Below, one piece after another: positions 1 to 20,290 of a stretch of 64,000 bases of DNA (its first letter is position 1; the number at the start of each line of letters is the position of its first letter). The stretch comes from a virus. The notes beneath the pieces are model-generated. The model ran no database searches and had not been told where the DNA came from. It worked only from the letters and a program-made list of their open reading frames with translations. The position numbers and the translations under genes were made by a program. The stretch covers positions 1-64,000 of IMG/VR virus record IMGVR_UViG_3300012928_002096; one strand, 5' to 3'.

Positions 1-387
1 GAATATAAGTTGCGTAAAAAAACAAAAAACTTTGAAACAAAAAAGCAAGAAATATTAAAAACTGTTGTGTGCAAATACATACACGAAGGTGAAATATTTA
101 TTGCAAGTAATTTAACATTATGGCCTTGTTGTTTTCTTTGGGATAGTGCTTTCAAAAACAAAGAAGGCATACTTGACAAATTAAATCAATTTGAACCAAA
201 CTGGAATAGTTTAAAACATCATAGTAAAGAAGAAATTTTACAACATCCTTGGTATGCAAAACTATTAGCAGCAAGTTGGGAACCCGGACACGAATTACAT
301 TTGACAAGATGTATTAGGACTTGTGCAAAAAATAAGGCGTATCATAACGAAATAAATTACGTAGATAATGCGATAAGTACATTATGA
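1..387 (+). CDS. C-terminal part of a radical SAM/SPASM-like protein (5' truncated by window edge)
   Basis: The reading frame is open back to base 1, so this is probably the tail of a longer gene. A TTG at 10 is the only early start in frame, and I do not favour it. The piece has a CK-Y pattern, then a PCC pair near residue 40, then RCIRTC near the end, with a conserved HPWY stretch between. That spacing resembles an auxiliary iron-sulfur (SPASM) domain after a radical SAM core, and the next gene is a radical SAM enzyme. Its stop overlaps the next start as ATGA at 384. The family call is an inference because the core lies outside the window. Confidence 0.5.
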   Translation, partial: EYKLRKKTKNFETKKQEILKTVVCKYIHEGEIFIASNLTLWPCCFLWDSAFKNKEGILDKLNQFEPNWNSLKHHSKEEILQHPWYAKLLAASWEPGHELHLTRCIRTCAKNKAYHNEINYVDNAISTL

Positions 388-1796
388 ATAAAGTGAGTGA
401 TACGTTCTGTATTCTTCCTTGGGTACACCTTAGCACTAGACCAGATGGTAGTATGAGAGTTTGCTGCACAGCAAACGCAAGTAGTGTTGGTCCAACAAAT
501 GATAAAGAACACGGCGGACAAGTTGGTATTCTAAAAACAGATGACGGCAAGCCAAACAATTTAAATGTTACAGATTTTCAAACTGCTTGGAACAGTGAGT
601 ATATGAAAAATGTGCGTAAGCAAATGATGAATGGTGAGAAGCCTCCTAGTTGTTTGAAATGCTACAAAGAAGAAGCCGCAGGCCATAATTCAAAACGTAT
701 GTGGGAAACTGAATATTGGAGTTCACGTACAAATGTAGATGAACTAATAGCAAACACAACAGATGATGGGGAAGTACCTCCACAACTTGCATACATTGAT
801 TTACGTTTTGGTACTAAGTGTCAACTTGCTTGTGTGATGTGTAGTCCGCACGATTCAAGTGGCTGGATCAAAGATTACAAAAAAATATTTCCTGCTGTGC
901 AAAATAAAAGTTTAAAAGAAACAATGCAGTGGCAAGACAAGGGTAGCACAAACGGTAGTAGTTATAATTGGCATAAACAAAATCCTATTTTCTGGGAACA
1001 ATTTTATGCACAAATGCCATATATGAAACAAATATATTTTGCTGGTGGTGAAAGTTTAATTATTGAGGAACATTATGAAATACTTGAAGAAGCCATTAGG
1101 CAAGGTATTGCAAAAGATTTGGAACTTCGTTATAACTCAAATGGAGTTGAATGGCGAGAGGATTTATTTGATTTATGGAAACAATTCAAACTTGTGCGTT
1201 TTCACTATTCGGTAGACAGCATAGGAGAAATGAATAGTTACATACGTTATCCAAGTGAATGGAAACGTACCGAAGAAGTTTTCCATATTTTAGATAAACA
1301 AACAAGTGTTAATGTTGAAATTACTGTTGCTTGTGCAGTGCAAGCATTGAACATTTATTACTTGCCAGACTTTATAAAATGGAAACTAGAACAAGGATTT
1401 CAAAAAGTAAATATGTGGCCATTTGGTGCAGGCGGTATAAACTATCACTTTGTGTATCATCCTCCTCATTTAAATGTAAAAGTTTTACCAAATTGGTTCA
1501 AAGCAGAAGTACGTAAAAAATATGAGGAGTTTTATCCTTGGTGGGAAGCTAATTGGGAAAAAGGAATACCTTCTTGGTATAAGTATGGCAAAAAGAAAAC
1601 TACATATCAGCAATGGCGTGATGCAGGGTATGGCATTAAACGTTTACAAGGTATGGTAAATTTTATGGAAAGCGAAGACTGGAGTAGACGTCTACCTGAA
1701 ATGAAAGAATTTTTACATAGGTGTGATGTGCAACGTGGCAACAGTTTTGCCACAGTCTTTCCAGAGATGAAGGACATATTCGATGGCCTTGAATAG
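384..1796 (+). CDS. Radical SAM protein with N-terminal twitch-type domain (type A, copy 1)
   Basis: A 470-residue protein. The canonical CX3CX2C cluster motif is C146, C150, C153 within TKCQLACVMC and should bind the 4Fe-4S cluster that cleaves S-adenosylmethionine. Before it lies a cysteine domain (C9, the C27-C28 pair, C90 and C93), which fits an N-terminal twitch/SPASM-like auxiliary cluster. FAGGES is the expected GGE-like SAM motif. It is a clear paralogue of the gene at 8605: both begin DTFC..PW, then CC, then a C-x2-C with E and R/K residues. The substrate is unknown. It overlaps the upstream gene by 4 nt and the downstream one by 14 nt, so it is likely translated from a polycistron. 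Confidence 0.85.
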   Translation: MNKVSDTFCILPWVHLSTRPDGSMRVCCTANASSVGPTNDKEHGGQVGILKTDDGKPNNLNVTDFQTAWNSEYMKNVRKQMMNGEKPPSCLKCYKEEAAGHNSKRMWETEYWSSRTNVDELIANTTDDGEVPPQLAYIDLRFGTKCQLACVMCSPHDSSGWIKDYKKIFPAVQNKSLKETMQWQDKGSTNGSSYNWHKQNPIFWEQFYAQMPYMKQIYFAGGESLIIEEHYEILEEAIRQGIAKDLELRYNSNGVEWREDLFDLWKQFKLVRFHYSVDSIGEMNSYIRYPSEWKRTEEVFHILDKQTSVNVEITVACAVQALNIYYLPDFIKWKLEQGFQKVNMWPFGAGGINYHFVYHPPHLNVKVLPNWFKAEVRKKYEEFYPWWEANWEKGIPSWYKYGKKKTTYQQWRDAGYGIKRLQGMVNFMESEDWSRRLPEMKEFLHRCDVQRGNSFATVFPEMKDIFDGLE

Positions 1797-3057
1797 TCTT
1801 CCTTGTTACTATGCACTAGGCGGTTTGAACTTGAAGCAACAGTTTGCTACAAGTTGTCCACAGCAATCTGATAGATTACAGTGGTTGGCAAAAGGACATT
1901 TACCTAGTCAATATTTTAACAATGAAGAATTTAAAAAACACAGATTAGATTTGCTAAGAGGCAATTGGCCTACTGGTTGTGATATGTGCCAAATAGTCGA
2001 AGAACAAAAGTCCGGTATCAGTATGCGACAGGAAACACCACCTGATACACGTTGGACTGATTATGGCACAGGTGCCACAAAGTTTGAAGGTTTAAAAACT
2101 ATTGAAATACGTTTTAGTAATGCTTGTAATATGGCTTGTTTACATTGTAGTGCAGCGTTTAGCAGCGGCTGGATGACAAAATTAAAACGCTATCAACCAG
2201 ATGAAATTGATCGTGAACACCACTTGGTACAACTTACACAAGATATGCATAGAAAACACATAGATGAAGCAATGCGTATTGAGCTAGATACAAAAATGGC
2301 TCTAGAAGTAGTTGATGACCTTATTGAAAACTTTCCTAATTTAGAAAGAGTTGATTTTGCAGGTGGAGAGGTGTTGTATCAAAAACCATTTCTACCTACA
2401 CTTGATAGACTTGCAGAACATCCAAATGCAAAAAATATGTTTATAATGTTTCATACAAATTTTAATGCTCCATTTGATCCTGTAGCTCTTAGTCACCGCT
2501 TGGATAAATTTGGCAGCAGTGAAGTAAAAATAAGTATTGATTGTAGTCCAGGAATGTATCAATATTTTAGAGGCGGCGATTGGGACGTATTAGCAAAAAA
2601 TATTGCAACTTTTAAATCTGTAAGAAGTAGGAAAACAAAAATTTCATTAATATGCACAACAGGTGTATATCAACTTATGCAGTTTAAAGATATTATACAA
2701 GGATTTGTAGAATTAGAATGTGATTATATTAACATTAGTATTATATACACACCTGAATATTTAAATCCTGCTCTTATGATGTTGTATTACAAAGACGAAA
2801 CTGAAAAAGAAATAAACAGTGCTATTGCATACTTAACTAAATTTACATCAAAAGACAGAAGTGACTGTTTTATTGCTTATCAAGGCATAAAAAACATATG
2901 GGAATATATACATAACCATCGAGTAGAAGAAAAACATTGGACAGCATTTAAAGAATATATTAAAAAAACTGATGTTATATGGAAACAAGAATTTAACGAC
3001 CACTTTACAAATTATCAATTTGATAAAAATACAAATAGGATATTAAGAAATGTTTGA
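1783..3057 (+). CDS. Radical SAM protein with N-terminal twitch-type domain (type B, copy 1)
   Basis: A 424-residue protein. The radical SAM cysteines are C115, C119 and C122 (ACNMACLHC). An upstream cysteine domain has C8, C25, C66 and C69, with the shared G-C-x2-C...E...SG.SMR pattern also present in the gene at 5580. FAGGEV is the SAM-binding GGE motif. The second N-terminal cysteine position is single here but double (CC) in its relatives, so the auxiliary cluster may be bound differently. The gene sits between the type A enzyme and a QueC-like ATPase, with overlaps at both ends. The substrate is unknown. Confidence 0.82.
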   Translation: MALNSLPCYYALGGLNLKQQFATSCPQQSDRLQWLAKGHLPSQYFNNEEFKKHRLDLLRGNWPTGCDMCQIVEEQKSGISMRQETPPDTRWTDYGTGATKFEGLKTIEIRFSNACNMACLHCSAAFSSGWMTKLKRYQPDEIDREHHLVQLTQDMHRKHIDEAMRIELDTKMALEVVDDLIENFPNLERVDFAGGEVLYQKPFLPTLDRLAEHPNAKNMFIMFHTNFNAPFDPVALSHRLDKFGSSEVKISIDCSPGMYQYFRGGDWDVLAKNIATFKSVRSRKTKISLICTTGVYQLMQFKDIIQGFVELECDYINISIIYTPEYLNPALMMLYYKDETEKEINSAIAYLTKFTSKDRSDCFIAYQGIKNIWEYIHNHRVEEKHWTAFKEYIKKTDVIWKQEFNDHFTNYQFDKNTNRILRNV

Positions 3058-3874
3058 AACAAGTAATAAATTTTATGAAAAACTAGGAGATGAATTTATT
3101 ATCACTAAAATAAACCATTTAGATATTGCGTTTAGTAAAAAATGGAAACGTATAGGTGTAAATTTAAGTGGAGGTGCTGATAGTGCATTACTTTGCTTTG
3201 TATTAGGTAAGATAATTGTTGATAATAATTTAGATTGTAAAATAGATGTAATCACATATCAGCGTTGTTGGGAAACTAGACCTTGGCAAGGATGGTGGAG
3301 TATACAAGTTTTCAATAAATTACAAAGTTTATATCCTAATATTATAGAAAATAGACATACAACATTCATACCACCTGCATTAGAACACGGTGTAAGTGGT
3401 CCTATTATAGATGGTAGGAGCGGTGACCAAATTATTGTAGGCGAATTTAATAAATTTGCAAGTTGGGAGTATAATTTAGATGCTGTATTCAATGCTACAA
3501 GTAAGAATCCAGACGACTCACGTGAAGATCGTATGAAAAATAGAGATGGTGACGCAGAAAATGCAAAAAGTTGGGATTTAATTTGGTTCAGTCCTAAATT
3601 AAAAACACATTTTTGTCATCCGTTTAGGTTTGTCAAGAAGGATTGGATTGTAGCTCAATATCATCTTTACAATATACTTGATTTATATTATACTACACGT
3701 AGTTGTGAAGGAGATATCAACCATAATCCCGCAGTATCTGATGTTGTAAAAGATTTTACTAAGTACACATTAGGTATGGAAGTTCCTGTGTGTAATGAAT
3801 GCTGGTGGTGTGATGAAAGACAGTGGGCTGAACAAAGAGTGCCTGAAATGATAAAGGAAATTGATGAGTTTTGA
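3050..3874 (+). CDS. PP-loop ATPase, QueC-like
   Basis: A 274-residue protein with the N-type ATP pyrophosphatase loop SGGADS at residues 40-45. Near the C-terminus C219, C248, C251 and C254 form a CNECWWC-ER arrangement. QueC, which turns 7-carboxy-7-deazaguanine (CDG) into preQ0 with ATP and ammonia, also has a PP-loop and a C-terminal four-cysteine zinc site ending CxxC..R. The rest is divergent and Trp-rich, and the first Cys lies further from the others than in cellular QueC. FolE, QueE-like, QueD-like and DpdA-like genes lie 30-38 kb away in this window. The alternative is another PP-loop amidase or adenylating enzyme that works with the adjacent radical SAM proteins. Confidence 0.6.
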   Translation: MFETSNKFYEKLGDEFIITKINHLDIAFSKKWKRIGVNLSGGADSALLCFVLGKIIVDNNLDCKIDVITYQRCWETRPWQGWWSIQVFNKLQSLYPNIIENRHTTFIPPALEHGVSGPIIDGRSGDQIIVGEFNKFASWEYNLDAVFNATSKNPDDSREDRMKNRDGDAENAKSWDLIWFSPKLKTHFCHPFRFVKKDWIVAQYHLYNILDLYYTTRSCEGDINHNPAVSDVVKDFTKYTLGMEVPVCNECWWCDERQWAEQRVPEMIKEIDEF

Positions 3875-5042
3875 TACTATAGATCTGCTTACTGGGCACG
3901 TTTTCCAAGTTACTTGGGATACCGGACGTAGGTGTAACTACGACTGTAGCTATTGTCCTGTGCATAGGCACGATAATTTTTCACGACACGCAACTATTGA
4001 CGAACTCAAAGACAATGTTGACTTTTTGTATGAATATATTGATTTACACCTAGGGTATAGAAAGAGTAAGATTGCAAATATTGGATTTACAGGCGGAGAA
4101 CCAACAGTCAATCCAAACTTTATACCATTTGCAAAATATTTAAGATCTGAGTATGATACCAAATATAGGGATAAATGGGAATGTGGTTTTGCATTGACAT
4201 CAAATGGTGCAATGGGTGAAAAAATGGGTCAAGCAGTAATGGAAAATTTTGATCACGCTACTGTAAGTTATCATAGTGAAAGCGATCAAAAACTAAAAGA
4301 TCAAGTTAGGAACAGAATATTACAATTTCATTACAAAGGACAAGAACATAATTTCACTGTAAGTGTAAATGTTATGTTTCACGCTGAATATTTTGACGAG
4401 TGCAAAGACTTGTGTGCTTTCTTAGAACAACATCAAGTTGACTATGTACCAAGAGTTATAGGAGAAGAGCCTGATAGTCGTCCTAGTTTTGCACACAAAT
4501 ATAATGACGAACAACTTGCGTGGTTCAAAGATTATTGGCGTGTAAAAAATGAAAAGAAAAACGATGAAAAAGAAATTAGTAAAGTATTAAGTGCAGCAGG
4601 CGAAAAGAAAAACGAAAAGAAAAAACTTGGAAACAGTATAGGACGTCCTTGTTGCGGAAGTAGAGATATGTTACTACACGCTGGTGCAAAAAGTAAAAAA
4701 AGTAATTTTGTAGATTTCAGACAATTCAAAGGTTGGAGTTGTAGTGTAAATTGGTTTTTCTTACATCTTGAACAGCAAACAGATAGTGTATTTCATCATC
4801 AAACTTGCCAAGCAAAATTCGAACACGGTAAACGTGGACGCATTGGCAAACTTAGTGAAGGTAAGCAAATTATTGCTGACCTAAGACAAAAAATGGAAAC
4901 TAACACTATGCCTACTATTATATGTCCAAAAATGACTTGCGGTTGCGGATTGTGTGCGCCAAAAAGTATGCATCAAGATAGGTATTTAGAAGTTTTAGGA
5001 AATCACTTAGATACAGGAGTATTAAATGTTAATCACGGGTAA
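3864..5042 (+). CDS. Radical SAM protein with C-terminal Cys-rich region (type C, copy 1)
   Basis: The radical SAM motif lies at the extreme N-terminus: C24, C28 and C31 (RRCNYDCSYC). FTGGEP is the SAM-binding motif. A Lys/Glu-rich loop occurs around residues 220-250. After it come a PCCG pair, WSCSV, HQTC and a final cluster CPKMTCGCGLC, which look like auxiliary Fe-S ligands. ATG at 3864 is preferred over the TTG at 3861 because AAGGA stands five bases upstream. It is a paralogue of the gene at 9957. It overlaps the QueC-like gene upstream and the SDR gene downstream. The substrate is unknown. Confidence 0.82.
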   Translation: MSFDTIDLLTGHVFQVTWDTGRRCNYDCSYCPVHRHDNFSRHATIDELKDNVDFLYEYIDLHLGYRKSKIANIGFTGGEPTVNPNFIPFAKYLRSEYDTKYRDKWECGFALTSNGAMGEKMGQAVMENFDHATVSYHSESDQKLKDQVRNRILQFHYKGQEHNFTVSVNVMFHAEYFDECKDLCAFLEQHQVDYVPRVIGEEPDSRPSFAHKYNDEQLAWFKDYWRVKNEKKNDEKEISKVLSAAGEKKNEKKKLGNSIGRPCCGSRDMLLHAGAKSKKSNFVDFRQFKGWSCSVNWFFLHLEQQTDSVFHHQTCQAKFEHGKRGRIGKLSEGKQIIADLRQKMETNTMPTIICPKMTCGCGLCAPKSMHQDRYLEVLGNHLDTGVLNVNHG

Positions 5043-5580
5043 TAAAGATTCTGGTATAGCACAGGCGTTACACAAACTTTATCCTGATGCAGAATTTTGT
5101 AGTCAAAGTACAGGATATGATTTAGCACGTAAATTAGATCAAGAAAGACTTGCAGAACGTGTATGCGAACACGATGTGTTTATTAATTGTAGTGCATTGT
5201 TTAAATTTCATCAGACTACACTTTTAAATATTGTATATCATAAATGTATGTTAGAAAAACATTGGTGTCATATTGTTAATGTTGGCAGCACTACCGATCG
5301 TGTTAAAAAAGGCGGTAGTTGGTTGTACAATGCAGAAAAGAAAGCATTGAGAGATTATTCTAATACACTAGGATTAAATGGTGTTTGGCATAGTGGACCA
5401 AAAATAAGTTACATTAGTTTTGGAACATTAAGTAATAATCAGCATAAACATCCTAACAGAACTGTTATAGATATAGACACCGCTACAAGTTACATAAAAT
5501 GGGTAATAGATCAACCTAAAGAACTTTGTATAAATGAAATTAGTATTGATCCTATGCAGCCCGAACACTGGAGAGGCTAA
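5026..5580 (+). CDS. Short-chain dehydrogenase/reductase (SDR), short form
   Basis: A 184-residue Rossmann protein. It begins MLITGNKDSGI, matching the TGxxxxGI dinucleotide motif, and has an YNAEK that fits the catalytic YxxxK, preceded by a serine in VGSTT. It is shorter than typical 250-residue SDRs. A distant paralogue lies at 12428. It probably reduces or oxidises a carbonyl/alcohol with NAD(P)H in the cytoplasm. It starts inside the end of the type C radical SAM gene and ends in a TAATG overlap with the next gene. Confidence 0.7.
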   Translation: MLITGNKDSGIAQALHKLYPDAEFCSQSTGYDLARKLDQERLAERVCEHDVFINCSALFKFHQTTLLNIVYHKCMLEKHWCHIVNVGSTTDRVKKGGSWLYNAEKKALRDYSNTLGLNGVWHSGPKISYISFGTLSNNQHKHPNRTVIDIDTATSYIKWVIDQPKELCINEISIDPMQPEHWRG

Positions 5581-6785
5581 TGTCTTCCTTGCCGAAGTAT
5601 GGGTGTTTACTACCTATGCATCATATGGCTATTCGTCCAGATGGACAAGTTATACCGTGTTGTTATTTTAGACACGAATATGTTCCTAAAGGTTTAAATC
5701 TATCTTTGGACAATCCTTTCGAACATCCTTTTATGAAACAAAACAGACAAAGTGTTTTACTTGATGAAATGATTCCAGGGTGTAGTAAATGTTACGAAGA
5801 TGAAAAAACATCTGGACAAAGTATGCGTACAGAAATTTTTAATTCTCCGTATAATTTTCTAAACTTACCAACAGATGATAGTAGAGGAAAAATACCAAAA
5901 CTTACAAACATAGATATTACATTTAGTAATGTTTGTAATAATAAATGTAGGATGTGTGGACCAGAATTAAGTACACAATGGTATAGTGACGCAAAGAAAA
6001 TGAATTATCCGTTTGAAAAGCGTGGAATTATTGCTGAAAACAAATGGATAGAAAATGCAGATGTAAGCGACTTGACTTTTATTAAGTTTTTAGGCGGCGA
6101 GCCTTTGATGGAACAAGAAAAAATGATTAAACTATTGCAAAAATGTAATAGAGAAAAATTAGTTGTACATATTACTACAAACGGTACTTTGTTACCAAAT
6201 GAAACATTACATCAACTGCTGCAAGATTGTGAAAAAGTATATATGACTGTAAGCATTGACCAGTTTGGCGAATTCAATGACTTACTGCGGAAAGGCAGTC
6301 ATTGGGATACTACGTTGAACAATATGTTTGCTATGAAAGAAGATTACGGAAGACATCATACAACAGTGCATAGTGTTACATCTATATACAATGTAAACTT
6401 GTGTAATCAACTTATAGATTTTTGTATTGCAGAAAAATTTAATCAAAAAAATTGTATTGTTGATGGACCTAATTGGATGATGCCAAGAAATTTACCTGAA
6501 GCAGTAAAACAAAAATGTATTGATATAGTAAAAAAGCATTTAGTCAGTGCAACCAATACAAAAATTAGACAATTTGGTGATGCAAAATTTCATTACGATT
6601 TATTGATAAAAGAATTAGAACAAGAAGGCGACTTTGGAATGTTTTTACGCAACGACACACGTATAAACATAATACGTAATGAACATTGGAAAGACTTTAA
6701 TCCTTGGTTGTTCAATGAAATTCAGCCATACTTTGAAGATACACAACTAGAACCTGGACAACTAGATTACTTACGTAACCTCTGA
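5580..6785 (+). CDS. Radical SAM protein with N-terminal twitch-type domain (type B, copy 2)
   Basis: A 401-residue protein with radical SAM cysteines C119, C123 and C126 (VCNNKCRMC). The N-terminal auxiliary set is C9, C27-C28, C68 and C71. The GGEPLM motif near residue 172 fits the SAM-binding GGE element. It shares the LP...P-DG...PCC opening and the C-x2-C...SGQSMR segment with the gene at 1783. The start overlaps the SDR stop (TAATG). This gene ends the first co-oriented block; a 27-base gap with a late-promoter-like box follows. Confidence 0.83.
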   Translation: MSSLPKYGCLLPMHHMAIRPDGQVIPCCYFRHEYVPKGLNLSLDNPFEHPFMKQNRQSVLLDEMIPGCSKCYEDEKTSGQSMRTEIFNSPYNFLNLPTDDSRGKIPKLTNIDITFSNVCNNKCRMCGPELSTQWYSDAKKMNYPFEKRGIIAENKWIENADVSDLTFIKFLGGEPLMEQEKMIKLLQKCNREKLVVHITTNGTLLPNETLHQLLQDCEKVYMTVSIDQFGEFNDLLRKGSHWDTTLNNMFAMKEDYGRHHTTVHSVTSIYNVNLCNQLIDFCIAEKFNQKNCIVDGPNWMMPRNLPEAVKQKCIDIVKKHLVSATNTKIRQFGDAKFHYDLLIKELEQEGDFGMFLRNDTRINIIRNEHWKDFNPWLFNEIQPYFEDTQLEPGQLDYLRNL

Positions 6786-6791: not shown

Positions 6792-6812
6792 TATAAAACT
6801 ATTGAGGATAAA

Positions 6813-7307
6813 ATGTTCCACACAAAAAACATAAACTACAAAATGTTGAGTAAAGATTCTTTGGATGCTGTAAGAAAATTTGTCACAACAGAAAAACATC
6901 TTTTTGATATGGGAATCTCGTATTTGCCACACAAACCTAAGAATCAAAGTCATAGATGGAAACCTTATACAAATTTACTTAGACCTATTACAAATTATCT
7001 CAAAGAAAAAGATTTAAACATTACCATAATAGGGTCAAATAGAATTGAAGGAAATACAAAAAGAAATTCATTTAAAGTACCAAATAAAGTTAACGGCTCT
7101 AATACAACTATTTTCATACCGTTGTTTGATTATTCAAGAGAACAAAAAATATTACATTTTGCCAACACTAATTGTGCATTAAATTCTACATTAGTGTTTG
7201 ATAATTCTTTATATAGACGCTGGGTTAATGAATCTAACATAAAGTTTTGTTTTTTAGTCTATGGGGTGAGCGAGTCTATTAGTATAGTTACTGAAAGGTT
7301 GTCATAA
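6813..7307 (+). CDS. Hypothetical protein, 164 aa
   Basis: I do not recognise this protein. It is basic in its first half (HKPKNQSHRWKP), with an IFIPLFDYS strand-like segment near residue 108 and no clear metal or nucleotide motif. Its length and the strand-rich C-terminal half (FCFLVYG) could fit a divergent cupin or 2OG-oxygenase fold, but I see no HxD. It has its own GAGG ribosome site and a late-promoter-like box. The next gene begins 2 nt after its stop. Confidence 0.6.
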   Translation: MFHTKNINYKMLSKDSLDAVRKFVTTEKHLFDMGISYLPHKPKNQSHRWKPYTNLLRPITNYLKEKDLNITIIGSNRIEGNTKRNSFKVPNKVNGSNTTIFIPLFDYSREQKILHFANTNCALNSTLVFDNSLYRRWVNESNIKFCFLVYGVSESISIVTERLS

Positions 7308-7308
7308 T

Positions 7309-7905
7309 TTGCAAATCGTATATGGAGAACCGAGGACAGGTTCTCATTTTGTAGCAAGGCATATTGCTAATAAAAATAATATGTTATTTTTGGGAGAATA
7401 TTTTAAAACTCCAATACCTAATGCACAAGTAAATATTGAAGATAAAATAAAATCTATTCCGGAAAACTCTGTAATAATAATTCATCCAGATTTGTCATAT
7501 GGCTATTACACAGATACTTTTTACGATTGGTTATTTTCTAATCCATTAATAGTTACAGAAACAAATGATCGCTGGCGACAAGTTATAAGCTGGGGTATAG
7601 CAGCTAAAACAACAAATTATCATAGTTTTAATATTTCAAAGCAACTCGATCAATATATAATTTATAAAAGAGAATTTTTTGATATGTTAAAATATTCTAT
7701 ACAAAAGTTTGAAAGTACTAAACATCTTATTAATTACAAAGAAAGATACACTTTACAAGACCTTGATAAAATATCTTTTGTAAATGGAAAATATAATCCT
7801 ACCAAAAAAACCTACAAGCAAAATACTCAACAATTAAGTTTAATGTATGAAAATATTGAAGAAGTAAAAGAATGGTATCAGGAAATAAGAATTAATAAAA
7901 ATTGA
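7309..7905 (+). CDS. Sulfotransferase-like P-loop protein
   Basis: A 198-residue protein starting at TTG. The segment GEPRTGSHFV at residues 6-15 resembles the 5'-phosphosulfate binding loop of Stf0/LPS-type sulfotransferases (PRTGS). Such enzymes transfer sulfate from PAPS to sugars or lipids. The later WRQVISW segment fits the helical 3'-phosphate region only loosely. Several Lys/Tyr-rich stretches follow. It could be another nucleotide-binding enzyme. It is neighbour to the unrecognised 164-aa protein and a nitroreductase. Confidence 0.5.
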   Translation: MQIVYGEPRTGSHFVARHIANKNNMLFLGEYFKTPIPNAQVNIEDKIKSIPENSVIIIHPDLSYGYYTDTFYDWLFSNPLIVTETNDRWRQVISWGIAAKTTNYHSFNISKQLDQYIIYKREFFDMLKYSIQKFESTKHLINYKERYTLQDLDKISFVNGKYNPTKKTYKQNTQQLSLMYENIEEVKEWYQEIRINKN

Positions 7906-7912
7906 ATAAATA
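7905..7912 (+). promoter_or_regulatory. T4-late-promoter-like AATAAATA box
   Basis: AATAAATA lies 22 bases before the ATG at 7935, with AGGAG at 7924-7928. The spacing matches that at 6784-6791. Confidence 0.4.
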
Positions 7913-7934
7913 CATTTGTATACAGGAGACTACA

Positions 7935-9951: not shown

Positions 9952-9956
9952 ATAAT

Positions 9957-12967: not shown

Positions 12968-13566
12968 GTTATTATACAGAATTAGATTTACCAGAATTAG
13001 AATTATACGATGAATTCAATAAGTTAATGGACAATGGTACTATACATTGGTTTAGAGATGATTGTCAAGATCAAATTTGTATCAATAGTACAAAAAAAGA
13101 TCCTGATAATTTTTTATTAGGTAGAGCGAGTTTATATTATGACTGGGATAAATCTTATGAAGAAGATGGTAAAATAGTAACTCCTTTACGTAAACCACCG
13201 TTACGGGAACAACAGTTTACTACACTTTGCACAGCATTTAAAGGTACACTGTTTGAAGAAGTTTACAATGCTCTCACAAAAAAATACAATGTTGGCAGAG
13301 TTAGAATAATGAATAGTCAACCAAAGACTTGTTTAACTTGGCATAGTGATAATACAACTAGAATACATTATCCAATGAAAACACAAGATGGCTGTTTTAT
13401 GATTATTGAAGACGAAGTAAAACATTTAGAAAAAAATAAATGGTATCATACGGATACACGATACGAGCATACTGCAATGAACGCAAGCAGAGAAACTAGA
13501 ATGCATTTGGTTGCTTGTGTGTTAGAGGAAAGGTTTGATGGAGAATACAACAAAGTTATTAATTAA
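12964..13566 (+). CDS. 2-oxoglutarate/Fe(II)-dependent oxygenase-like protein
   Basis: A 200-residue protein. LTWHSDNTTRIHYPM carries an HxD (H-S-D) and RYEHTAMN the distal histidine, followed by an Arg in RETRMHL. The strand pattern resembles aspartyl/asparaginyl beta-hydroxylase-type cupins. It overlaps the SDR upstream as ATGA and the desaturase downstream by about 29 bases. The substrate is unknown. Confidence 0.68.
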   Translation: MSYYTELDLPELELYDEFNKLMDNGTIHWFRDDCQDQICINSTKKDPDNFLLGRASLYYDWDKSYEEDGKIVTPLRKPPLREQQFTTLCTAFKGTLFEEVYNALTKKYNVGRVRIMNSQPKTCLTWHSDNTTRIHYPMKTQDGCFMIIEDEVKHLEKNKWYHTDTRYEHTAMNASRETRMHLVACVLEERFDGEYNKVIN

Positions 13567-14251
13567 TCACGCTTTTTGTCATCTTATGCTTATACCTGCA
13601 TTTTTGTATGGTGATGCTTGGATGTTCATAGCAGGATTTGCTTGGTGGTATGTAATTGCTATTGTTGCAATAAGTGGTGGATATCACAGATATTACAGTC
13701 ATTTTAGTTTTAAGACACGCAAGTGGTATCCATATGCTGTAAATATTTTAGGAATGTTTGCAGGAGCAGGGCCAGCAATGACTTGGGCTGCAACACATAG
13801 ACAACATCACGCATATAGTGACACTGAAGACGATCCCCACAGTCATAGTATCAAAGGTATTTGGAGTGTATATGTAAACACCTGGGGTTATGGTTTTAAA
13901 ATTAAACGTAGATTTATAAAACGTTTACTACAAGATCCGTTGTTAAGATGGTTCCACAAATATTACTTTCATTTAAATGTTGCAATTATTGTTGTGTTTA
14001 CTGCTATTGATCCTATGCTTATGATATTTGGTTATGCTATGCCTGTTGTACTAGCATTTCACGGATATGGTTTGTTAAATGTTTTAGGACACAAAGATGC
14101 ACAACCAAACAATAGTTGGATAGCAAACATATTAACTGCTGGCGAAGGTTGGCATAAAAATCATCATAAACGTGCAGGAAGTTATGAAATAGGACAAAAA
14201 TGGTGGGAACTAGATCCTACTGCTTGGTTTATAAAAATAATTAAGGTTTAG
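13538..14251 (+). CDS. Fatty acid desaturase (delta-9/SCD-like), three His boxes
   Basis: A 237-residue membrane di-iron enzyme. The three histidine boxes are visible: HRYYSH (HX4H), HRQHH (HXXHH) and HKNHH (HXXHH). Hydrophobic membrane segments lie before box one and between boxes two and three. Stearoyl-CoA/acyl-lipid desaturases insert a double bond in membrane fatty acids using O2 and electrons from ferredoxin or cytochrome b5. At about 237 residues it is a minimal version. ATG 13538 is preferred over the TTG at 13535. It may alter host membrane lipids during infection. Confidence 0.85.
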   Translation: MENTTKLLINHAFCHLMLIPAFLYGDAWMFIAGFAWWYVIAIVAISGGYHRYYSHFSFKTRKWYPYAVNILGMFAGAGPAMTWAATHRQHHAYSDTEDDPHSHSIKGIWSVYVNTWGYGFKIKRRFIKRLLQDPLLRWFHKYYFHLNVAIIVVFTAIDPMLMIFGYAMPVVLAFHGYGLLNVLGHKDAQPNNSWIANILTAGEGWHKNHHKRAGSYEIGQKWWELDPTAWFIKIIKV

Positions 14252-14252
14252 T

Positions 14253-14912
14253 ATGGACATTACTTTTGCAGCAATTGACTTAGGTATTAGTGCTTTAGAA
14301 AAACAAAAAATATTAAATGAGATACTTAGTGTTCCTGATGATTATTGGCATTACAATGAATTTAGAGGATGTCATATGCTAGGCATATACAACGGTGGCG
14401 GTAAACTAGGTGGTAGAGATGTAGCAGGAAATACTGCTAAAGGTGAATTTGATTATACTCCAGCTGGTAAACTATGCCATTACACACGATATACATTAGA
14501 AAATAAAATGTTTCCTTTTATGGATCCTGTTGGCAGAGTAACAATACTACGTACAAAAGTTAATGCTGGATTGTCTGTGCATTTAGATAGCACCTATGAA
14601 GAAATAGGTACATTACAACACAAGTTTAGATATGTTCTAAATGGTAACATTGACAAACTATATTTTTTAGATAGAGATCATAAAAAAATATTTGTGCCTG
14701 ATTGTTATGATACCTATGTAATGGATGGTAGTCACGCACATAGTTTAGATCCTGGCACAGAAGAAAAAATTACACTTTGTATAGGTGCTCCTTGGAAAGG
14801 AAAGCCTAATGCTAAGTATGATGAAATATTAAATAATTCATTATTTAATTTTAAAGTAAGTAGACCAAGTTATTACAAGCAGGAATGGCTAGATCCATTT
14901 TTTAAAAAATGA
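14253..14912 (+). CDS. Aspartyl/asparaginyl beta-hydroxylase-like cupin oxygenase
   Basis: A 219-residue protein. GLSVHLD carries HxD, YVMDGSHAHSLDPG the distal histidine(s), and EKITLCIGAPW the final strand. A conserved RYVLNG lies between. This matches the jelly-roll order of Asp/Asn hydroxylase-type 2OG oxygenases. An N-terminal extension of about 90 residues contains GGGKLGG. The start is 2 bases after the desaturase stop. The substrate is unknown. Confidence 0.65.
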   Translation: MDITFAAIDLGISALEKQKILNEILSVPDDYWHYNEFRGCHMLGIYNGGGKLGGRDVAGNTAKGEFDYTPAGKLCHYTRYTLENKMFPFMDPVGRVTILRTKVNAGLSVHLDSTYEEIGTLQHKFRYVLNGNIDKLYFLDRDHKKIFVPDCYDTYVMDGSHAHSLDPGTEEKITLCIGAPWKGKPNAKYDEILNNSLFNFKVSRPSYYKQEWLDPFFKK

Positions 14913-15505
14913 GAATTGTTACACTAGAACAATATGAAGAAAAATTTTTATCATATTGTAATAAGTTTTATAATTTAGATGATAGGAATAAAGATTGGTT
15001 TGATCCTGATTATGCAGGAAGCATACCAAATTCATACAAAAAATATCCACTGTGGACTTTTCTCATAGACGACAACGATAACCTAATTGCATTGAGTTGT
15101 GTGCAAACACATTATTTTCCAGATGATTGTGCTAGGCTTTTAACAAGAACATTTTACAATCCTGAATATAGACGCAAGCATTTAAAATATGAACATAATG
15201 AAAAAACACCTGCAATGTATATGCTTGAAGCACAACTTGAATTAACAAACTATAAACATAATTTTATGAGTGTAGAATTTATAAGAAGAAAAAATTCACT
15301 AGTGAAATTGGCAAAAAAGCTCAACGATAAATATTCTACTAACTGGAAAGTGCTTGATAATTTATATCACACTTATCCAAACAGTGATGATCCACATAGT
15401 TGGCAACCAGTGTGTGTATTACAAACAGATAGTAAATTTCCGTTGAGACACATATCGCAAACAGAATGGGAAAGCATATATGGCAGAAAAGTGTTTAATT
15501 CATAA
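14909..15505 (+). CDS. GNAT-like acyltransferase (tentative)
   Basis: A 198-residue protein. The strand-loop-helix DDCARLLTRTFYNPEYRRK followed by YMLEAQLEL resembles the acetyl-CoA binding region of GNAT enzymes, and FMSVEFIRRKNSL fits the next strand. The R-x-x-G-x-A pyrophosphate motif is not clear. The C-terminal half mentions several HxW and PHSW segments. I treat the assignment as weak. It overlaps the gene before it by four bases and may overlap the next by 26. Confidence 0.4.
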   Translation: MRIVTLEQYEEKFLSYCNKFYNLDDRNKDWFDPDYAGSIPNSYKKYPLWTFLIDDNDNLIALSCVQTHYFPDDCARLLTRTFYNPEYRRKHLKYEHNEKTPAMYMLEAQLELTNYKHNFMSVEFIRRKNSLVKLAKKLNDKYSTNWKVLDNLYHTYPNSDDPHSWQPVCVLQTDSKFPLRHISQTEWESIYGRKVFNS

Positions 15506-16139
15506 TACTCGTAGAAGCAGAGTTGCAGGAAACAACGGACCAAGAAGACATCAAATGAAAACACACGGTACAGTTACACAAAACGTACCTAAAGATGTAT
15601 TAGAACAAATTTACCAAATTGCTGCTACATATAACGGAAATGATTTAGGCGGAGATAATTATCAGATATCACAGCATTGTGATGTAAAAACTGCATTTAC
15701 TGCCAGTGAATCGTATTCACAAATTTTGTTGCAACAATTAAATGATGGCGCAGAAAATGAAGTTGATGAAACTAACTACACAACGTGGCGTAAAGACTTA
15801 CAAACTAATCTAATTGAACAATACTTAGAAAACACGTTTAAAACACCGTATAGAGCCCGTATAAGCGTTATGCACGGGGGTAATGAACTAAATTACCACA
15901 TAGACACTGATACAAGTGTGTTATGTCGTGTACAAATACCTGTAATTACAGAAGGTAGTTTATTTCAATGGAAAACAAAAACTGAAGAAATTAGTTTAGA
16001 TATGTTAACCGGCAATAGTTATTTTGTTAACACTGGTTGGCTACATAGAGTTACAAATGATAGTAACAACATAAGAATTGTTTTAATTTTTGGTGTTGAC
16101 TATGACAATTTACCAAACAAAGAAAGTTTGCTAATTTGA
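15480..16139 (+). CDS. 2-oxoglutarate/Fe(II)-dependent oxygenase-like protein
   Basis: A protein of up to 219 residues. LNYHIDTDTSVLCRVQIPV holds HxD and the following R, and GWLHRVTN the distal histidine. This is the H-x-D...H pattern of asparaginyl/aspartyl hydroxylase-like cupins. The start is uncertain: ATG 15480 adds a basic 25-residue leader overlapping the previous gene, while ATG 15555 begins directly at MKTHGTVTQN, with a weak AAGAAG site. The substrate is unknown. Confidence 0.65.
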   Translation: MAEKCLIHNTRRSRVAGNNGPRRHQMKTHGTVTQNVPKDVLEQIYQIAATYNGNDLGGDNYQISQHCDVKTAFTASESYSQILLQQLNDGAENEVDETNYTTWRKDLQTNLIEQYLENTFKTPYRARISVMHGGNELNYHIDTDTSVLCRVQIPVITEGSLFQWKTKTEEISLDMLTGNSYFVNTGWLHRVTNDSNNIRIVLIFGVDYDNLPNKESLLI

Positions 16140-16864
16140 CATATGTTGATAAAAATGATTGGGTGTTTGATACAAAACAACTACAAACAGAGTTGCAAAA
16201 ATTATTAGAAGAAAATAAAGTCAACAATCAACGAGATGGCAGTTTACACGGGTTATGCCTAACTTCGCAGGACGGCAGTTTATACAATGGATTTAATTTT
16301 AATGTTGCTATACAATATCCTCCGTATGAACAACAAGATAAACAAGATCCTAATCCTAAAATTTATTTTGATTTAGAATACGCTAAACAAAACAACATAT
16401 ATCATATGCTTGACTATGAAGTAGAAACAAATGCTTGTACAGGTATATGGAAAGAAATAATAGACTTTTTGTACAGTAAAGGAATGAATCCACGTAGAGT
16501 AAGACTTTCTTACTTACCACCAGAAGGTGTTATTAATACACATAGCGATGGAGGCGGATATAAATTTCATATACCGATATACACAGATGGTACAGATTTT
16601 GTACACGGAGACGAATCTTACACATTAGAAGAAGGTGGTAGTTATCTAGCAAGTGTTAATCCTTATCATTATGTAAAAAATAATGGTGACACAGATAGAT
16701 GGCATCTAGTTGCTGATGTTTGGGACACAGTAGGAAACTTTAGGATTGGAAAAGTAGGGCAAGACGAATTTAATAATGAAAAAGTAAATGCAAAACTATG
16801 GCGTGATTATGTTAACGGAAAAATAGACACACCAAATAAAATTTTATTAGGAGCTGAAAACTAA
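16136..16864 (+). CDS. 2-oxoglutarate/Fe(II)-dependent oxygenase-like protein
   Basis: A 242-residue protein starting at TTG, overlapping the previous stop as TTGA. RLSYLPPEGVINTHSDGG has the HxD (H-S-D) and NPYHYVKNNGDTDRWHLV the distal His region. The order and the PEG...H.D spacing fit cupin-type hydroxylases. No in-frame ATG exists near the overlap. The substrate is unknown. It is one of a tandem run of oxygenase-like genes. Confidence 0.66.
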   Translation: MTYVDKNDWVFDTKQLQTELQKLLEENKVNNQRDGSLHGLCLTSQDGSLYNGFNFNVAIQYPPYEQQDKQDPNPKIYFDLEYAKQNNIYHMLDYEVETNACTGIWKEIIDFLYSKGMNPRRVRLSYLPPEGVINTHSDGGGYKFHIPIYTDGTDFVHGDESYTLEEGGSYLASVNPYHYVKNNGDTDRWHLVADVWDTVGNFRIGKVGQDEFNNEKVNAKLWRDYVNGKIDTPNKILLGAEN

Positions 16865-17700
16865 TGCAAATGGACGCAGTAAGATATGAAATAGATTTTA
16901 ACACTATGAGTGACTCAGAAATTGTAAACTGGGGTAAAAATATAGTAAAAGATAATGTTGTACTTGTTAGAAACCAAAACCTAGACGAAGCAGGCATACT
17001 AAGAGTTTGTGAATTAGTTGGCAATGTGCTGAAACCAAATCAATTTTTTATGCATCCAGATTACCCTGGCTTATTTAGAGTAACAAACGAACGTAAGGAT
17101 GGCGATAAGATTGGTATCTTTGCAGACAAAGAACTAGACTGGCACAGTAACGGTAATGGTAGGAAAAGCGGCAAAGAGTGTTGTGTAGCCTTATATTGTA
17201 TTCGTCCTGGTGAAAACAGTGTAACTAGTTTTTGTGATACTAGACAAGCATATAGAGATCTAAGCGAAGAAGATAAAAACTTTTACAAGCAAATAGATTG
17301 TACATTTAAATTTGAGAACGGAACATTTTATGACTTAGACGAAGATGACAAAGAATTAAAAATGTTTCAAGGTGGCGCAAGAGATTTCAAGTATGGTGTT
17401 ACAAAACCTTTGGTATATACGCATCCATATGATGGTGATGAAGGATTGTACTTTACATTTCATTACATTAGAGAAATGTGGCTTAGAGATAATCCAGAAG
17501 AGAAGTTGGACAAGCAACCTATCTTTGATAAATTAATGGCACATATTTTCCAAGACAAATATATTTGGCATCACGATGATTGGCAACCAGGTGATTTTAT
17601 TTTTATGGATCAGTTTCATAGTATTCATAAACGTAATGCAGTCGAAGGTGATAGATTCTTATATAGACTAAGTTTTGATTATGAAGGTTGTTATGGATAA
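16864..17700 (+). CDS. TauD/TfdA-family dioxygenase homologue with HxN instead of HxD
   Basis: A 278-residue protein with the overall TauD/clavaminate-synthase layout: an N-terminal VVLVRNQNL region, LDWHSNGNG at residues 91-99, and the distal FMDQFHSIHKRN near residues 248-258, followed by YRLSF whose Arg (R268) should bind 2-oxoglutarate. The expected iron motif H-x-D/E reads H94-S95-N96. An Asn in place of the Asp is unusual and may mean altered iron binding, altered chemistry or loss of activity. It overlaps its neighbours by one base (TAATG). Confidence 0.7.
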   Translation: MQMDAVRYEIDFNTMSDSEIVNWGKNIVKDNVVLVRNQNLDEAGILRVCELVGNVLKPNQFFMHPDYPGLFRVTNERKDGDKIGIFADKELDWHSNGNGRKSGKECCVALYCIRPGENSVTSFCDTRQAYRDLSEEDKNFYKQIDCTFKFENGTFYDLDEDDKELKMFQGGARDFKYGVTKPLVYTHPYDGDEGLYFTFHYIREMWLRDNPEEKLDKQPIFDKLMAHIFQDKYIWHHDDWQPGDFIFMDQFHSIHKRNAVEGDRFLYRLSFDYEGCYG

Positions 17701-18395
17701 TGCATTACTACGAACTAGAATGGACAGATGATTTCAAACTTATGTTTGAAATACTAACAAAGTTTTACGTTAGTATGCCTAGTATTCTAGATGATGAAAC
17801 TCCAAGATTGCCTATTATTTTTGATAAATTAAAAGATGCATACGAAAATCCTTTTAACAAGCATAAACAAGCATTATGGTTTGATAGAATAAAAGAACCA
17901 GATCAGGAAGTAAAATTAATACTTGAATTATTTGACAAATACAAATTCAAGCACAATATAGACTATTTTACACAATCTGGACATAAAGATATTACAGGTG
18001 AATTTTTACCACATAGACATATGCCAGGAAAAGTTAGACGTGGTGTTACAGATGATGGTGCTGCTGTAGATAAAGTACAAACCGATGCAGTAGGCGAAAA
18101 AGGTACAGAAATACAAACTACAAATGTACAATTTACATTTCCGTATATTAATTCACATTTAGGCGAAACACAATGGTCAGCAACATACGATGTGCCTTTC
18201 TTAGAAAGACGTAGATTTACAGAAGAAGAAATTACTGGCAGATACACACTTAACACAAAGCCTGTTTTGTTTGATGTTAAGTCTTGGCACCAAGGACGTA
18301 ATACAACAAATAATGAAGATAGAGTATTATTTGGTATACCAACTTTATTTAATAATGTTAAAGAAGCAGTTAAATACCTAAGGAGATTACAATGA
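17700..18395 (+). CDS. Putative 2OG-oxygenase/cupin-fold protein
   Basis: A 231-residue protein. LPHRHMPG near residue 105 and SWHQGRN near residue 195 are candidate metal-binding histidines. VLFGIP is a plausible last strand with the 2OG Arg upstream. The first metal motif is H-x-H rather than H-x-D, so the class is uncertain. ATG 17700 overlaps the previous TAA. AAGGAG stands before the next gene. Confidence 0.5.
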   Translation: MHYYELEWTDDFKLMFEILTKFYVSMPSILDDETPRLPIIFDKLKDAYENPFNKHKQALWFDRIKEPDQEVKLILELFDKYKFKHNIDYFTQSGHKDITGEFLPHRHMPGKVRRGVTDDGAAVDKVQTDAVGEKGTEIQTTNVQFTFPYINSHLGETQWSATYDVPFLERRRFTEEEITGRYTLNTKPVLFDVKSWHQGRNTTNNEDRVLFGIPTLFNNVKEAVKYLRRLQ

Positions 18396-19066
18396 ATAGA
18401 TTGAGATATAAATTCGGAGATAGATTTGCAGAAACTAAAGGATACGATGGGTTTGCTGCTGATAAAGATGAATTAAATAACTTCTTTGAACAAAAGGTAA
18501 AAGGAAAATTAGGTGATCATAACACTGTTGGTATAGATAGTACAAAGCAACATATATACAATGTTTGTTATGATTGTAATATACCTTTATGGAACGAAAT
18601 ATATAATCGTGTTACAAATATAGGTACGATGTGTGATGTAAAACTAAATTGGGATGAAATAAAACATTGTATGCGTTTTACTTTTATATGGATGCCGCCA
18701 GGAGGAGATCTTACTCCACACACAGCTCATTACTTCAGAGCATTAAGTGCATTCAATACACCATTACGTGGCAAAACAGAAATAAGTTTCTACGAACATT
18801 TACCACAAGAAGATGGAACACACAAAGTCGGCAAAAAATTAGAAACGCACGAATATTTCAATCCTAATTTTTTAAATGTAAATCGTTATCACGGTGTTGC
18901 AAATGATACAGAAGAAGAACGTATGATATTAAAAACACATTTACTTATTGTGCCTTGGCAAAAACTTGTTAAAGCATACGAAGGTGATGATATTATTAAT
19001 ATGTTTGAAGAAACAGTTCCTTGGCAAAAACAAAAGAAAGAAACACAAGTCAAACGTCATGGATAA
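18392..19066 (+). CDS. Putative cupin/2OG-oxygenase-like protein
   Basis: A 224-residue protein. PPGGDLTPHTAHYFRALSAF, with H-x-x-H and an Arg, and VNRYHGVAND, with a distal His, fit a jelly-roll metal site like that of aspartyl hydroxylases, where H...R...H bind iron and 2-oxoglutarate. The C-terminal tail is basic. It starts in an ATGA overlap and ends inside the first codons of the next gene. Function is not known. Confidence 0.5.
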   Translation: MNRLRYKFGDRFAETKGYDGFAADKDELNNFFEQKVKGKLGDHNTVGIDSTKQHIYNVCYDCNIPLWNEIYNRVTNIGTMCDVKLNWDEIKHCMRFTFIWMPPGGDLTPHTAHYFRALSAFNTPLRGKTEISFYEHLPQEDGTHKVGKKLETHEYFNPNFLNVNRYHGVANDTEEERMILKTHLLIVPWQKLVKAYEGDDIINMFEETVPWQKQKKETQVKRHG

Positions 19067-19847
19067 TTTTAACAAAGAAGAAATAATTAATCACGCACGT
19101 GAACACGGATGGTGGTTACAAAGAGATGTGCAAATGGATAGGAAGCAATTTATGGAGTTTTGTAACCATATTGCTACACCTTGGTCGTGGAAAATACACG
19201 ATATGCACGGAGAAGGCGATCTTAACGAAGAAGAAGTTGTAGATTGGTCAAGTGAAACTAGATTTATGAAACGTAGTTTGCCTTGGCACGCTGATAATCC
19301 TTGGAGTAAAGATTTTCAGTTTCCTTTACGTGCATTTTATGCAGTAAATATACCTGATCCAAAAGACGGACCTTTAGAGTTTCTTAATCAAACAAAATGG
19401 TTTGAATCACTTGGCGAAAATCAAAAAGCAGACTTTAGATATATGAAAGTACTTGTGCAATGCTACAAAGGAAATTGCCAACCTTATTACGATGACTTTG
19501 TAAAAGTAAATCCAATTACAGGTAAAGAAAGTTTAAACTGGGGAAGTAAAGTTGTATACAGCGATGTATATGGGTTAGAACCTGATGAAGGACACGCACA
19601 TAATCATTTTTCATTTACAATGGCAATTATGCGTGATAGGAATATTGTTCCTGATGAAGAAATATCTACTTGGTTTCAAGATATGATAGATAAAGGGCAT
19701 CACGATATTGTTGAATTTAAAGAAGGTGATCTGCTTGTTAATGATAATTGGACAACATTTCATTATAGAAGAACATTAACAAACCCTAACGAACGTTTAC
19801 TTTATAGGAAAACATTGTTGCAACCATGGCAAAAATATATTGGCTAA
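19059..19847 (+). CDS. TauD/TfdA-like 2OG dioxygenase
   Basis: A 262-residue protein. SLPWHADNPWSKDF has a canonical HxD, and NDNWTTFHYRR the distal histidine with a nearby Arg. The long insert and the FPLRAFYAVN strand fit TauD-type enzymes. The start is ATG 19059, where MDNFNKEE begins; an upstream in-frame ATG lies deep inside the preceding gene. The substrate is unknown. It is the last clear oxygenase of the + strand island. Confidence 0.68.
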   Translation: MDNFNKEEIINHAREHGWWLQRDVQMDRKQFMEFCNHIATPWSWKIHDMHGEGDLNEEEVVDWSSETRFMKRSLPWHADNPWSKDFQFPLRAFYAVNIPDPKDGPLEFLNQTKWFESLGENQKADFRYMKVLVQCYKGNCQPYYDDFVKVNPITGKESLNWGSKVVYSDVYGLEPDEGHAHNHFSFTMAIMRDRNIVPDEEISTWFQDMIDKGHHDIVEFKEGDLLVNDNWTTFHYRRTLTNPNERLLYRKTLLQPWQKYIG

Positions 19848-20290
19848 CGATAAATGTAATTGGAAAAGATAATTATTTTAATGATTATCTCACAAATCCA
19901 GCAAAAAGATTTCAAACTGGTACAGGTAAAGCCTTAGGCAAAGATTACTGGAAAATGTATGAACAGGCATATTTGTATGCTAAACACCAAGGACATATTA
20001 TACTACGAGCAAAAGTTATTAACAAACGTAACGTGTTAAAAATATATCAAATATGGGATAGTAAAGATGTTCGTGAACAATGGGAACAAAAAGTTGATCC
20101 TAAATACTTTACTGCAACAGTACCACTTATTACATATCAATATCCTGTAAATGAAAAACAAAAAAACAAAATATTTGACTTAGTATTAAAAAGTAATAAA
20201 GTAATTTTACAGGCAGTAAGAGAAGATCATAGAACGCCAGGAATGACTATAGGCGATCCTTTAAAGTTAGATGTACTTTATAAAACTTAA
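19826..20290 (+). CDS. Hypothetical protein, 154 aa
   Basis: I do not recognise it. It has aromatic and Lys-rich stretches and no membrane segment. The middle contains W-D-S-K-D and W-E-Q-K segments. It overlaps the dioxygenase by 22 bases. Its TAA stop shares the palindrome TTAA with the stop of the convergent gene, so no terminator fits between the two operons. Confidence 0.6.
   Translation: MAKIYWLTINVIGKDNYFNDYLTNPAKRFQTGTGKALGKDYWKMYEQAYLYAKHQGHIILRAKVINKRNVLKIYQIWDSKDVREQWEQKVDPKYFTATVPLITYQYPVNEKQKNKIFDLVLKSNKVILQAVREDHRTPGMTIGDPLKLDVLYKT

Follow-up and report, generated by a model that had tools for sequence, protein, structure and literature searches.

The first 20290 bases of a phage contig were found to hold two modules of enzyme genes, each keeping its gene order in other viruses, and the first module contains a core of three radical S-adenosylmethionine (rSAM) proteins that also occurs on chromosomes of Bdellovibrionota, bacteria of the predatory type. 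The contig is the linear IMG/VR phage record IMGVR_UViG_3300012928_002096 (67036 bases), of which bases 1-64000 were analysed (the window). Since two modules keep their order in many related viruses, and one of them has an rSAM core shared with Bdellovibrionota, the island probably makes one specific chemical modification during infection. The most probable product is an unusual glycan or peptide modification, made and tailored by the island and linked to the region of tail fibres and host recognition. A sequence-only reading had described an enzyme island with no known pathway, densely packed on one strand. The non-random composition was upheld, and so was the packing: 26 open reading frames (ORFs) fill 99.7% of 1-20290, the biggest gap is 27 bp and overlaps are mostly 1-55 bp. 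The island lies wholly on the + strand and the remainder of the window on the opposite strand.

The virus is a marine T4-type phage of bacteria. Family searches identified a T4-type family B DNA polymerase, and the translations PhoH-like and DnaJ-like proteins as well as a thymidylate-synthase-like end, which together mark a tailed-phage fragment. The nearest relatives of the polymerase are those of Sinorhizobium phage Phosso (50%) and Agrobacterium phage Atu_ph07 (48%), both phages of Rhizobiales. A sister contig, IMGVR_UViG_3300020404_002628 (G003), is identical to the window and reaches about 8 kb further upstream. In this extension the gene cut by the contig end (g00, the seventh rSAM gene) is complete, and it is accompanied by two more rSAM genes (alpha and beta, the eighth and ninth) and by glycosyltransferase-like (GT-like), methyltransferase-like (MT-like), small and fibre-like genes.

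Module A (1-13566 and the 8 kb upstream) was shown to be an ordered multi-rSAM operon. A profile scan of IMG/VR with g01 (genes g00 to g25 are listed below) returned 486 stretches with relatives, some of which may be paralogues; the best 80 were all at least 81% identical. Gene order was compared under orthologue thresholds in 38 phage loci (deduplicated, 17 kb or longer), many of which were cut off by the 10-kb flanks. The mean pairwise Kendall tau was 0.93 (469 locus pairs), against 0.00 for the shuffled null (maximum 0.04), and all thresholded orthologues shared the strand of g01. Alpha was present in 37 loci, the MT-like gene in 34, the gene for a small protein named small74 in 31, the GT-like gene and g10 in 29 each, g04 in 27, g05 in 26, g00 in 24, g02 and g06 in 19 each, and g03 and g11 in 18 each. 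In the two closest relatives (G001 and G002) g00-g12, g14 and g15 follow in the same order, g13 is missing and other genes replace g16-g25. These two carry 10 rSAM domains each and G003 has 9 in 32 kb; the distant relatives G004 and G005 have 12 and 15. Because order and strand are so strongly conserved among many diverse phage contigs, the outcome that the sequence-only reading had named as speaking against it, independent genes in random order in relatives, fails for most of the island.

Comparison of G003 with G002 gave ratios of non-synonymous to synonymous divergence (dN/dS) of 0.03-0.12 in most block genes, showing strong purifying selection on them. Synonymous divergence (dS) itself ranged from 0.04 (g08) to more than 2, a spread indicating that segments were exchanged recently. 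In the g07/g08 segment (6813-7905) it was about 0.05, against 0.4-2 in most neighbours, the sign of a very recent exchange.

The core of module A consists of the three rSAM proteins g01, g11 and alpha. The proteins that G002 and G005 share have a median identity of 58%; among these g11 (88%) ranked first and g01 (86%) second, and between G002 and G004 g01 (88%) was again among the best-conserved proteins. The most distant pairs, which involve G011 (median 38-40%), had small74, a 201-aa protein, alpha and g01 at the top of the list.

A genome scan with g10 revealed Bdellovibrionota chromosomes on which g01, g11 and alpha occur together with GT-like genes and, in some cases, with MT-like genes as well. 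The hits are chromosomal: one lies on a 936-kb contig and another beside htpG- and maf-like genes. The 144 Bdellovibrionia genomes include 13 with g01, 15 with g11 and 17 with alpha; none of the 13 with g01 lacks g11 or alpha (Fisher p ~1e-16 for co-occurrence, relatedness not corrected for). In the 11 Bdellovibrionia genomes with the core on one contig, the three genes start within 2.3-5.7 kb, and GT-like or MT-like genes adjoin the core in several of them. At E <1e-40, g11 was found in 22/369 Bdellovibrionota genomes. In two other classes (369 and 385 genomes sampled) it was found only in the two metagenome-assembled genomes that had prompted the sampling; these g11-bearing contigs, labelled Rickettsiales and Gammaproteobacteria, resemble phage contigs. 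The cellular locus thus shares with the phages the same three rSAM families (about 41-68% identical) and GT-like or MT-like neighbours, but it is cellular, usually smaller and without a close small74. In a g11 tree, cell sequences and most phage sequences fell into separate groups; this tree, in which the outgroup and eight phage sequences have long branches, yielded neither a root nor a direction of transfer.

Module B (13535-20290, g16-g25) was shown to be a separate operon of a desaturase and several 2-oxoglutarate (2OG) oxygenases. Nine other contigs, which have hardly any 21-mers in common with the window, keep its order (tau 0.96), and in some of these g11/module A lies alongside in convergent orientation. 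In the cultured SAR11 phage Mosig EXVC030M, counterparts of the desaturase, TauD and Asp_Arg_Hydrox genes lie between the tail fibres and VrlC, in an island that also holds three genes annotated MoaA-like, an ArnB-like aminotransferase, a carbamoyltransferase and an epimerase. The TauD-like protein g21 lacks the usual HxD...H triad, HSN taking the place of HxD in the homologues read; the g21 homologues in all fetched loci (L319-L334) and in Mosig retain the motif WHSNGN, and in an alignment its HSN falls where ScoE and TfdA have the Asp. This replacement suggests a possibly atypical iron site in g21. Other phage TauD-like proteins have HxN or HxQ.

The island is hypervariable and flanked by tail-fibre/structural genes, the arrangement of a host recognition cluster (HRC). 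A fibre-like gene (33) lies upstream in G003 and in 18 of the 38 loci, and the downstream flank consists of a subtilase and a protein with a weak match to Mtd_N (tropism determinant). The subtilase gene (20287-22221) is convergent to the island, lies near tail-fibre-type proteins and encodes a C-terminal plastocyanin-like copper-binding domain.

The genes of the island, all on the + strand, are as follows.
1..387, +: g00, C-terminal part of a 364-aa rSAM protein, cut by the contig end; complete in G003 (CNAACPGC)
384..1796, +: g01, N-twitch rSAM protein of the module A core (PF04055; NF033640 423 bits)
1783..3057, +: g02, N-twitch rSAM protein (PF04055, NF033640)
3050..3874, +: g03, PP-loop ATPase-like protein resembling QueC at motif level (SGGADS and Cys cluster; 18/38 loci)
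3861..5042, +: g04, rSAM protein with a Cys-rich, SPASM-like C-terminal end (PF04055; 27/38 loci)
5026..5580, +: g05, short protein resembling short-chain dehydrogenases/reductases (SDR) (adh_short E=8e-4, YNAEK; 26/38 loci)
5580..6785, +: g06, N-twitch rSAM protein (PF04055, NF033640)
6813..7307, +: g07, no family match and no 2OG motif, in the recently exchanged segment (dS 0.05 against G002)
7309..7905, +: g08, possible nucleotide-binding protein of the 3'-phosphoadenosine-5'-phosphosulfate (PAPS) type; sulfotransferase not confirmed (motif GEPRTGSHF, no family match)
7902..8585, +: g09, nitroreductase-family flavoprotein (PF00881 E=3e-10)
8605..9933, +: g10, N-twitch rSAM protein (PF04055; NF033640 367 bits; 29/38 loci)
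9942..11078, +: g11, rSAM protein of the module A core (PF04055 E=2e-16)
11068..11742, +: g12, 2OG-oxygenase-like (HCD...H motif alone, no Pfam family)
11688..12431, +: g13, dihydroorotate-dehydrogenase-like (DHOD-like) flavoprotein, an independent insertion (PF01180)
12392..12967, +: g14, short SDR-like protein (TGxxxGIG, YTAHK; weak NCBIfam SDR match)
12964..13566, +: g15, Asp/Asn beta-hydroxylase-like 2OG enzyme closing the shared module A block (PF05118 E=9e-12; syntenic in G001/G002)
13535..14251, +: g16, fatty-acid desaturase opening module B (PF00487 E=8e-12; three His boxes; counterparts in Mosig EXVC030M and relatives)
14253..14912, +: g17, 2OG-like protein (HLD motif alone; module B synteny)
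14909..15505, +: g18, conserved module B protein, possibly an acetyltransferase (synteny; no Pfam match)
15480..16139, +: g19, Asp/Asn beta-hydroxylase-like 2OG enzyme (PF05118; module B synteny)
16136..16864, +: g20, Asp/Asn beta-hydroxylase-like 2OG enzyme (PF05118; module B synteny)
16864..17700, +: g21, TauD-like, HSN replacing the HxD iron-binding motif (PF02668 E=1.5e-30)
17688..18395, +: g22, no match in family searches
18392..19066, +: g23, conserved module B protein (copies 64-82% identical in module B of other contigs)
18948..19847, +: g24, TauD-like dioxygenase (HAD) (PF02668 E=1.5e-7)
19826..20290, +: g25, last island gene, abutting the convergent subtilase gene; no family match (also in module B of L325 and L327)

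Family searches bore out a large part of the assignments made earlier from motifs. All six complete rSAM genes passed the Pfam Radical_SAM (PF04055) cut-off of 29.5 bits and have CxxxCxxC and GGE[PSV] motifs, in line with the six complete enzymes and the tail of a seventh originally counted. The curated cut-off (170 bits) of the NCBIfam N-twitch rSAM model NF033640 was exceeded by four of the six (g01 423, g10 367, g06 236 and g02 203 bits), g04 and g11 scoring below it. The nitroreductase (7902), DHOD-like protein (11688) and desaturase (13535) were each confirmed by Pfam, and the two TauD-like proteins by PF02668 matches at 16864 and 18948. About eight 2OG/cupin-type proteins had been proposed: five are backed by Pfam, including three with Asp_Arg_Hydrox (PF05118; 12964, 15480 and 16136), and two more (11068 and 14253) are probable 2OG enzymes judging from their HxD motifs, while ORFs 6813, 17688 and 18392 found no support. 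Both proposed SDRs are short and weak (5026, adh_short E=8e-4; 12392, YxxxK and a weak NCBIfam SDR match). The sulfotransferase-like protein (7309) and the QueC-like ATPase (3050, SGGADS and a CxxCxxC end) kept their motifs and gained no family match; a g03 paralogue in a relative matched PP-loop/QueC only at E ~0.04-0.05. No homologue of g01, g11 or g03 with a solved structure was found by sequence.

Three known chemistries were considered and rejected. For queuosine/7-deazaguanine or another nucleobase modification, g03 had no QueC match in Pfam or NCBIfam and no companion genes were recognised; the rSAM proteins gave only weak scores against QueE models, and QueD and FolE were not specifically searched. 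A viperin-like antiviral function was set aside at a best score of 42.5 bits against the NF038283 cut-off of 180. A classical ribosomally synthesised and post-translationally modified peptide (RiPP) was likewise rejected: the island has no leader/core precursor, and the small74 encoded upstream is predicted to be folded.

This small protein has 74 residues (range 64-87), is encoded just upstream of the window beyond the contig edge, adjoins alpha in 31 of the 38 loci and ranked first among the proteins shared by the most distant pairs (71 and 68%). Its structural model is an ordered helical domain (predicted local distance difference test, pLDDT, 91), conservation extends along its whole length and no fold match was found in the PDB. 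As modelled, it is more likely an adaptor, a regulator or a folded substrate than a RiPP precursor. No close homologue was found near the cellular core, suggesting that small74 is not needed there. The earlier argument that the lack of a short precursor gene speaks against a simple RiPP was weakened: 1-20290 contains no precursor-like short gene (99.7% coding, largest gap 27 bp), but a very conserved small protein adjoins the core rSAM genes outside the window. The model of the GT-like protein (GTlike32), which has a conserved DGDA motif, gave Foldseek matches to GT-A enzymes of the GT2 type, including chondroitin polymerase, WrtF, SunS and ArnC (E 1e-5 to 1e-3). GTlike32 varies in length from 343 to 1090 residues, apparently through N-terminal repeat units (L161:7-3276, L173:1210-4440, L109:2312-3343).

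Lipid desaturases are known from cyanophages. Single 2OG oxygenases and desaturases have been described in marine phages (PMC7029224); in cyanophages and pelagiphages these are lone genes, whereas here they form an ordered operon with at least four 2OG-type proteins. The HRC of pelagimyophages is a hypervariable island among tail-fibre genes, for which rSAM cassettes were mentioned in passing (PMC7029224). Mosig (PMC7029224, PMC7892664, MT647606) and the HRC phages resemble the present phages in having such a large island in a T4-type marine genome, and Mosig also in its desaturase, Asp_Arg_Hydrox and TauD genes, the last with the same HSN, and in MoaA-annotated genes that include alpha-like and g04/fam13-like rSAMs. 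Mosig has no close homologues of g01, g11 or small74, whereas the present phages have 9-15 rSAM genes, the three-rSAM core with its cellular counterpart and a polymerase nearest to those of Phosso and Atu_ph07 (about 50%). Campylobacter phages CP220 and CPt10, also T4-like, encode 11 and 12 rSAM proteins with an interchangeable five-rSAM module (PMC2853527), but similarity is 22-25% and covers parts of g11 and alpha only. The T4-like environmental genome TARA_ERS488813_N000010 (183-kb), compared by its description only, is also marine and has a comparable number of rSAM genes (12); the paper stresses iron-sulfur (Fe-S) supply through an A-type carrier (PMC5332604), a family not found in the rSAM-rich T4-type records here. 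In the openly searchable literature we found neither the ordered modules nor the three-rSAM core nor its Bdellovibrionota counterpart described. Phages rich in rSAM genes were thus known earlier; the modules, the core and the cellular counterpart appear to be new.

Fe-S supply was rejected as a companion to the rSAM load, since the carrier family (PF01521) is missing from the fragmentary rSAM-rich T4-type records and lies in records mostly without many rSAMs. Six marine records with a DHOD-like gene (G007, G008, G010, G014, G016 and G017) have PF01521 but hardly any or no rSAM genes, opposite to the pattern in the rSAM-rich T4-type records; a 342 kb phage contig (G009, IMGVR_UViG_3300020469_003050) has both, with 17 rSAM matches. 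The DHOD-like gene g13 (motifs NxSCPN and GGLSG) is an independent insertion: it sits between g12 and g14 only here, is absent there in G001 and G002, and has relatives in 52 loci of viral contigs from marine phages, nearly all without the rest of the island. A SET-domain protein is phage-encoded in the variable part of the G002 island (L074:18422-18910:-).

The single pathway over 20 kb originally proposed was not borne out, because modules A (1-13566) and B (13535-20290) occur apart and g13 occurs alone. In the explanation that we tentatively prefer, this is a composite biosynthetic island in a hypervariable tail-fibre/host-recognition zone, where core rSAMs, GT-like and MT-like proteins and module B would build a decorated glycan-type product that alters the host envelope or the phage fibres. 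During infection the core enzymes would carry out C-H chemistry, such as oxidation, epimerisation, cross-linking or the forming of C-C bonds, with a saccharide or peptide-linked scaffold as substrate; the GT-like protein would attach this scaffold to an acceptor, and methylation would follow. Desaturation and hydroxylation by module B might come next, either of the product itself or of a protein or acyl group attached to it. Such a product could alter the host envelope, for example by blocking competing phages, or the phage's own fibres. Phages add the small helical protein to the core, and different phages add further rSAMs, SDRs, the PP-loop protein or the nitroreductase; the strictly conserved core may give an invariant structure and the exchangeable genes its varied decoration. 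Among the targets named earlier (nucleobase, lipid, surface glycan or small molecule) nucleobases are the least supported, and a surface glycan or a protein/peptide modification would be favoured.

Glycan tailoring is favoured over protein modification because of the GT-like protein, a UDP-glucose dehydrogenase in the G002 island and sugar-type enzymes in related islands; the protein reading ranks close behind because of the SPASM/twitch domains and small74. In that reading, which we consider rather unlikely, twitch/SPASM rSAMs and Asp/Asn-hydroxylase-like 2OG enzymes would modify a phage or host protein, possibly small74 or a tail fibre. It agrees with the N-twitch and SPASM matches among the rSAM proteins, the three Asp_Arg_Hydrox proteins, the position of small74 beside alpha in 31/38 loci and its top rank in distant pairs, the match of the GT-like fold to the peptide S-glycosyltransferases SunS and ThuS, and the SET-domain protein of G002. 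However, small74 is predicted to be ordered, helical and conserved throughout, unlike a disordered leader/core precursor, the cellular core has no close small74 nearby, and all known RiPP-rSAM maturase models scored far under cut-off for the island rSAM proteins. Several observations weigh against the glycan explanation itself. The GTlike32 model is moderately confident (pLDDT 77, predicted template modelling (TM) score 0.62) with Foldseek TM of 0.2-0.3, and the MT-like call comes from motifs and a weak match to a Mosig protein annotated as methyltransferase. No recognised sugar-nucleotide genes lay beside the Bdellovibrionota core in the loci read, no flippase, polymerase or O-antigen genes were seen, and the fragmentary rSAM-rich T4-type records showed no A-type Fe-S carrier (PF01521). 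SPASM/twitch-type rSAM enzymes act on peptides more often than on sugars, and modules that also occur apart need not share a product.

A soluble compound and a chance collection of genes are less likely than either. That the phage makes a small molecule or cofactor (antibiotic, signalling or nucleotide-like) through rSAM, PP-loop, SDR and 2OG steps is improbable: the QueC-like motif of g03, the MoaA/viperin-like rSAM similarity and a mix of nitroreductase, SDRs and multiple 2OG oxygenases typical of natural-product clusters fit such a product, but the viperin and MoaA similarities are far under curated cut-offs, no exporter or carrier/synthetase gene was recognised, and GT- or MT-like proteins accompany even the minimal cellular core. 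Auxiliary genes without a common product, piled up by recombination in a hypervariable region, would explain the lone g13 that close relatives lack, the dS mosaic (0.05 in g07/g08 beside about 1) as cassette exchange, and the downstream half that differs between relatives, and Campylobacter phages do swap a five-rSAM module (PMC2853527). Order, strand and co-occurrence are nevertheless strongly kept in both modules, for which this idea is largely refuted, and the core is co-distributed on bacterial chromosomes, leaving it very improbable as a whole. It may still apply to g13, to g22 and to the tie between modules A and B.

For the g01-g11-alpha triad we put forward, with more doubt than the glycan explanation, that it represents an undescribed pathway which a widespread group of marine phages has in common with some, though not most, Bdellovibrionota. 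The compound made, a new glycan or a structure derived from a peptide, would be near-essential for infection or competition, which may be why phages keep the triad among their most conserved proteins; it would then not be an optional auxiliary metabolic gene (AMG) set. For fifteen years rSAM-rich phages have been noted merely as gene counts, and here they yield a defined, testable unit: three rSAM families that travel together in many phages and on some bacterial chromosomes and are conserved at least as well as most other shared phage proteins. In place of 'many AMGs' there is now a specific question for biochemistry, limited to a small gene set, and part of the system is open to experiment because a comparable desaturase/2OG module occurs in a cultured SAR11 phage. 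The island is a pointer to new radical and oxygenase chemistry in abundant ocean viruses.

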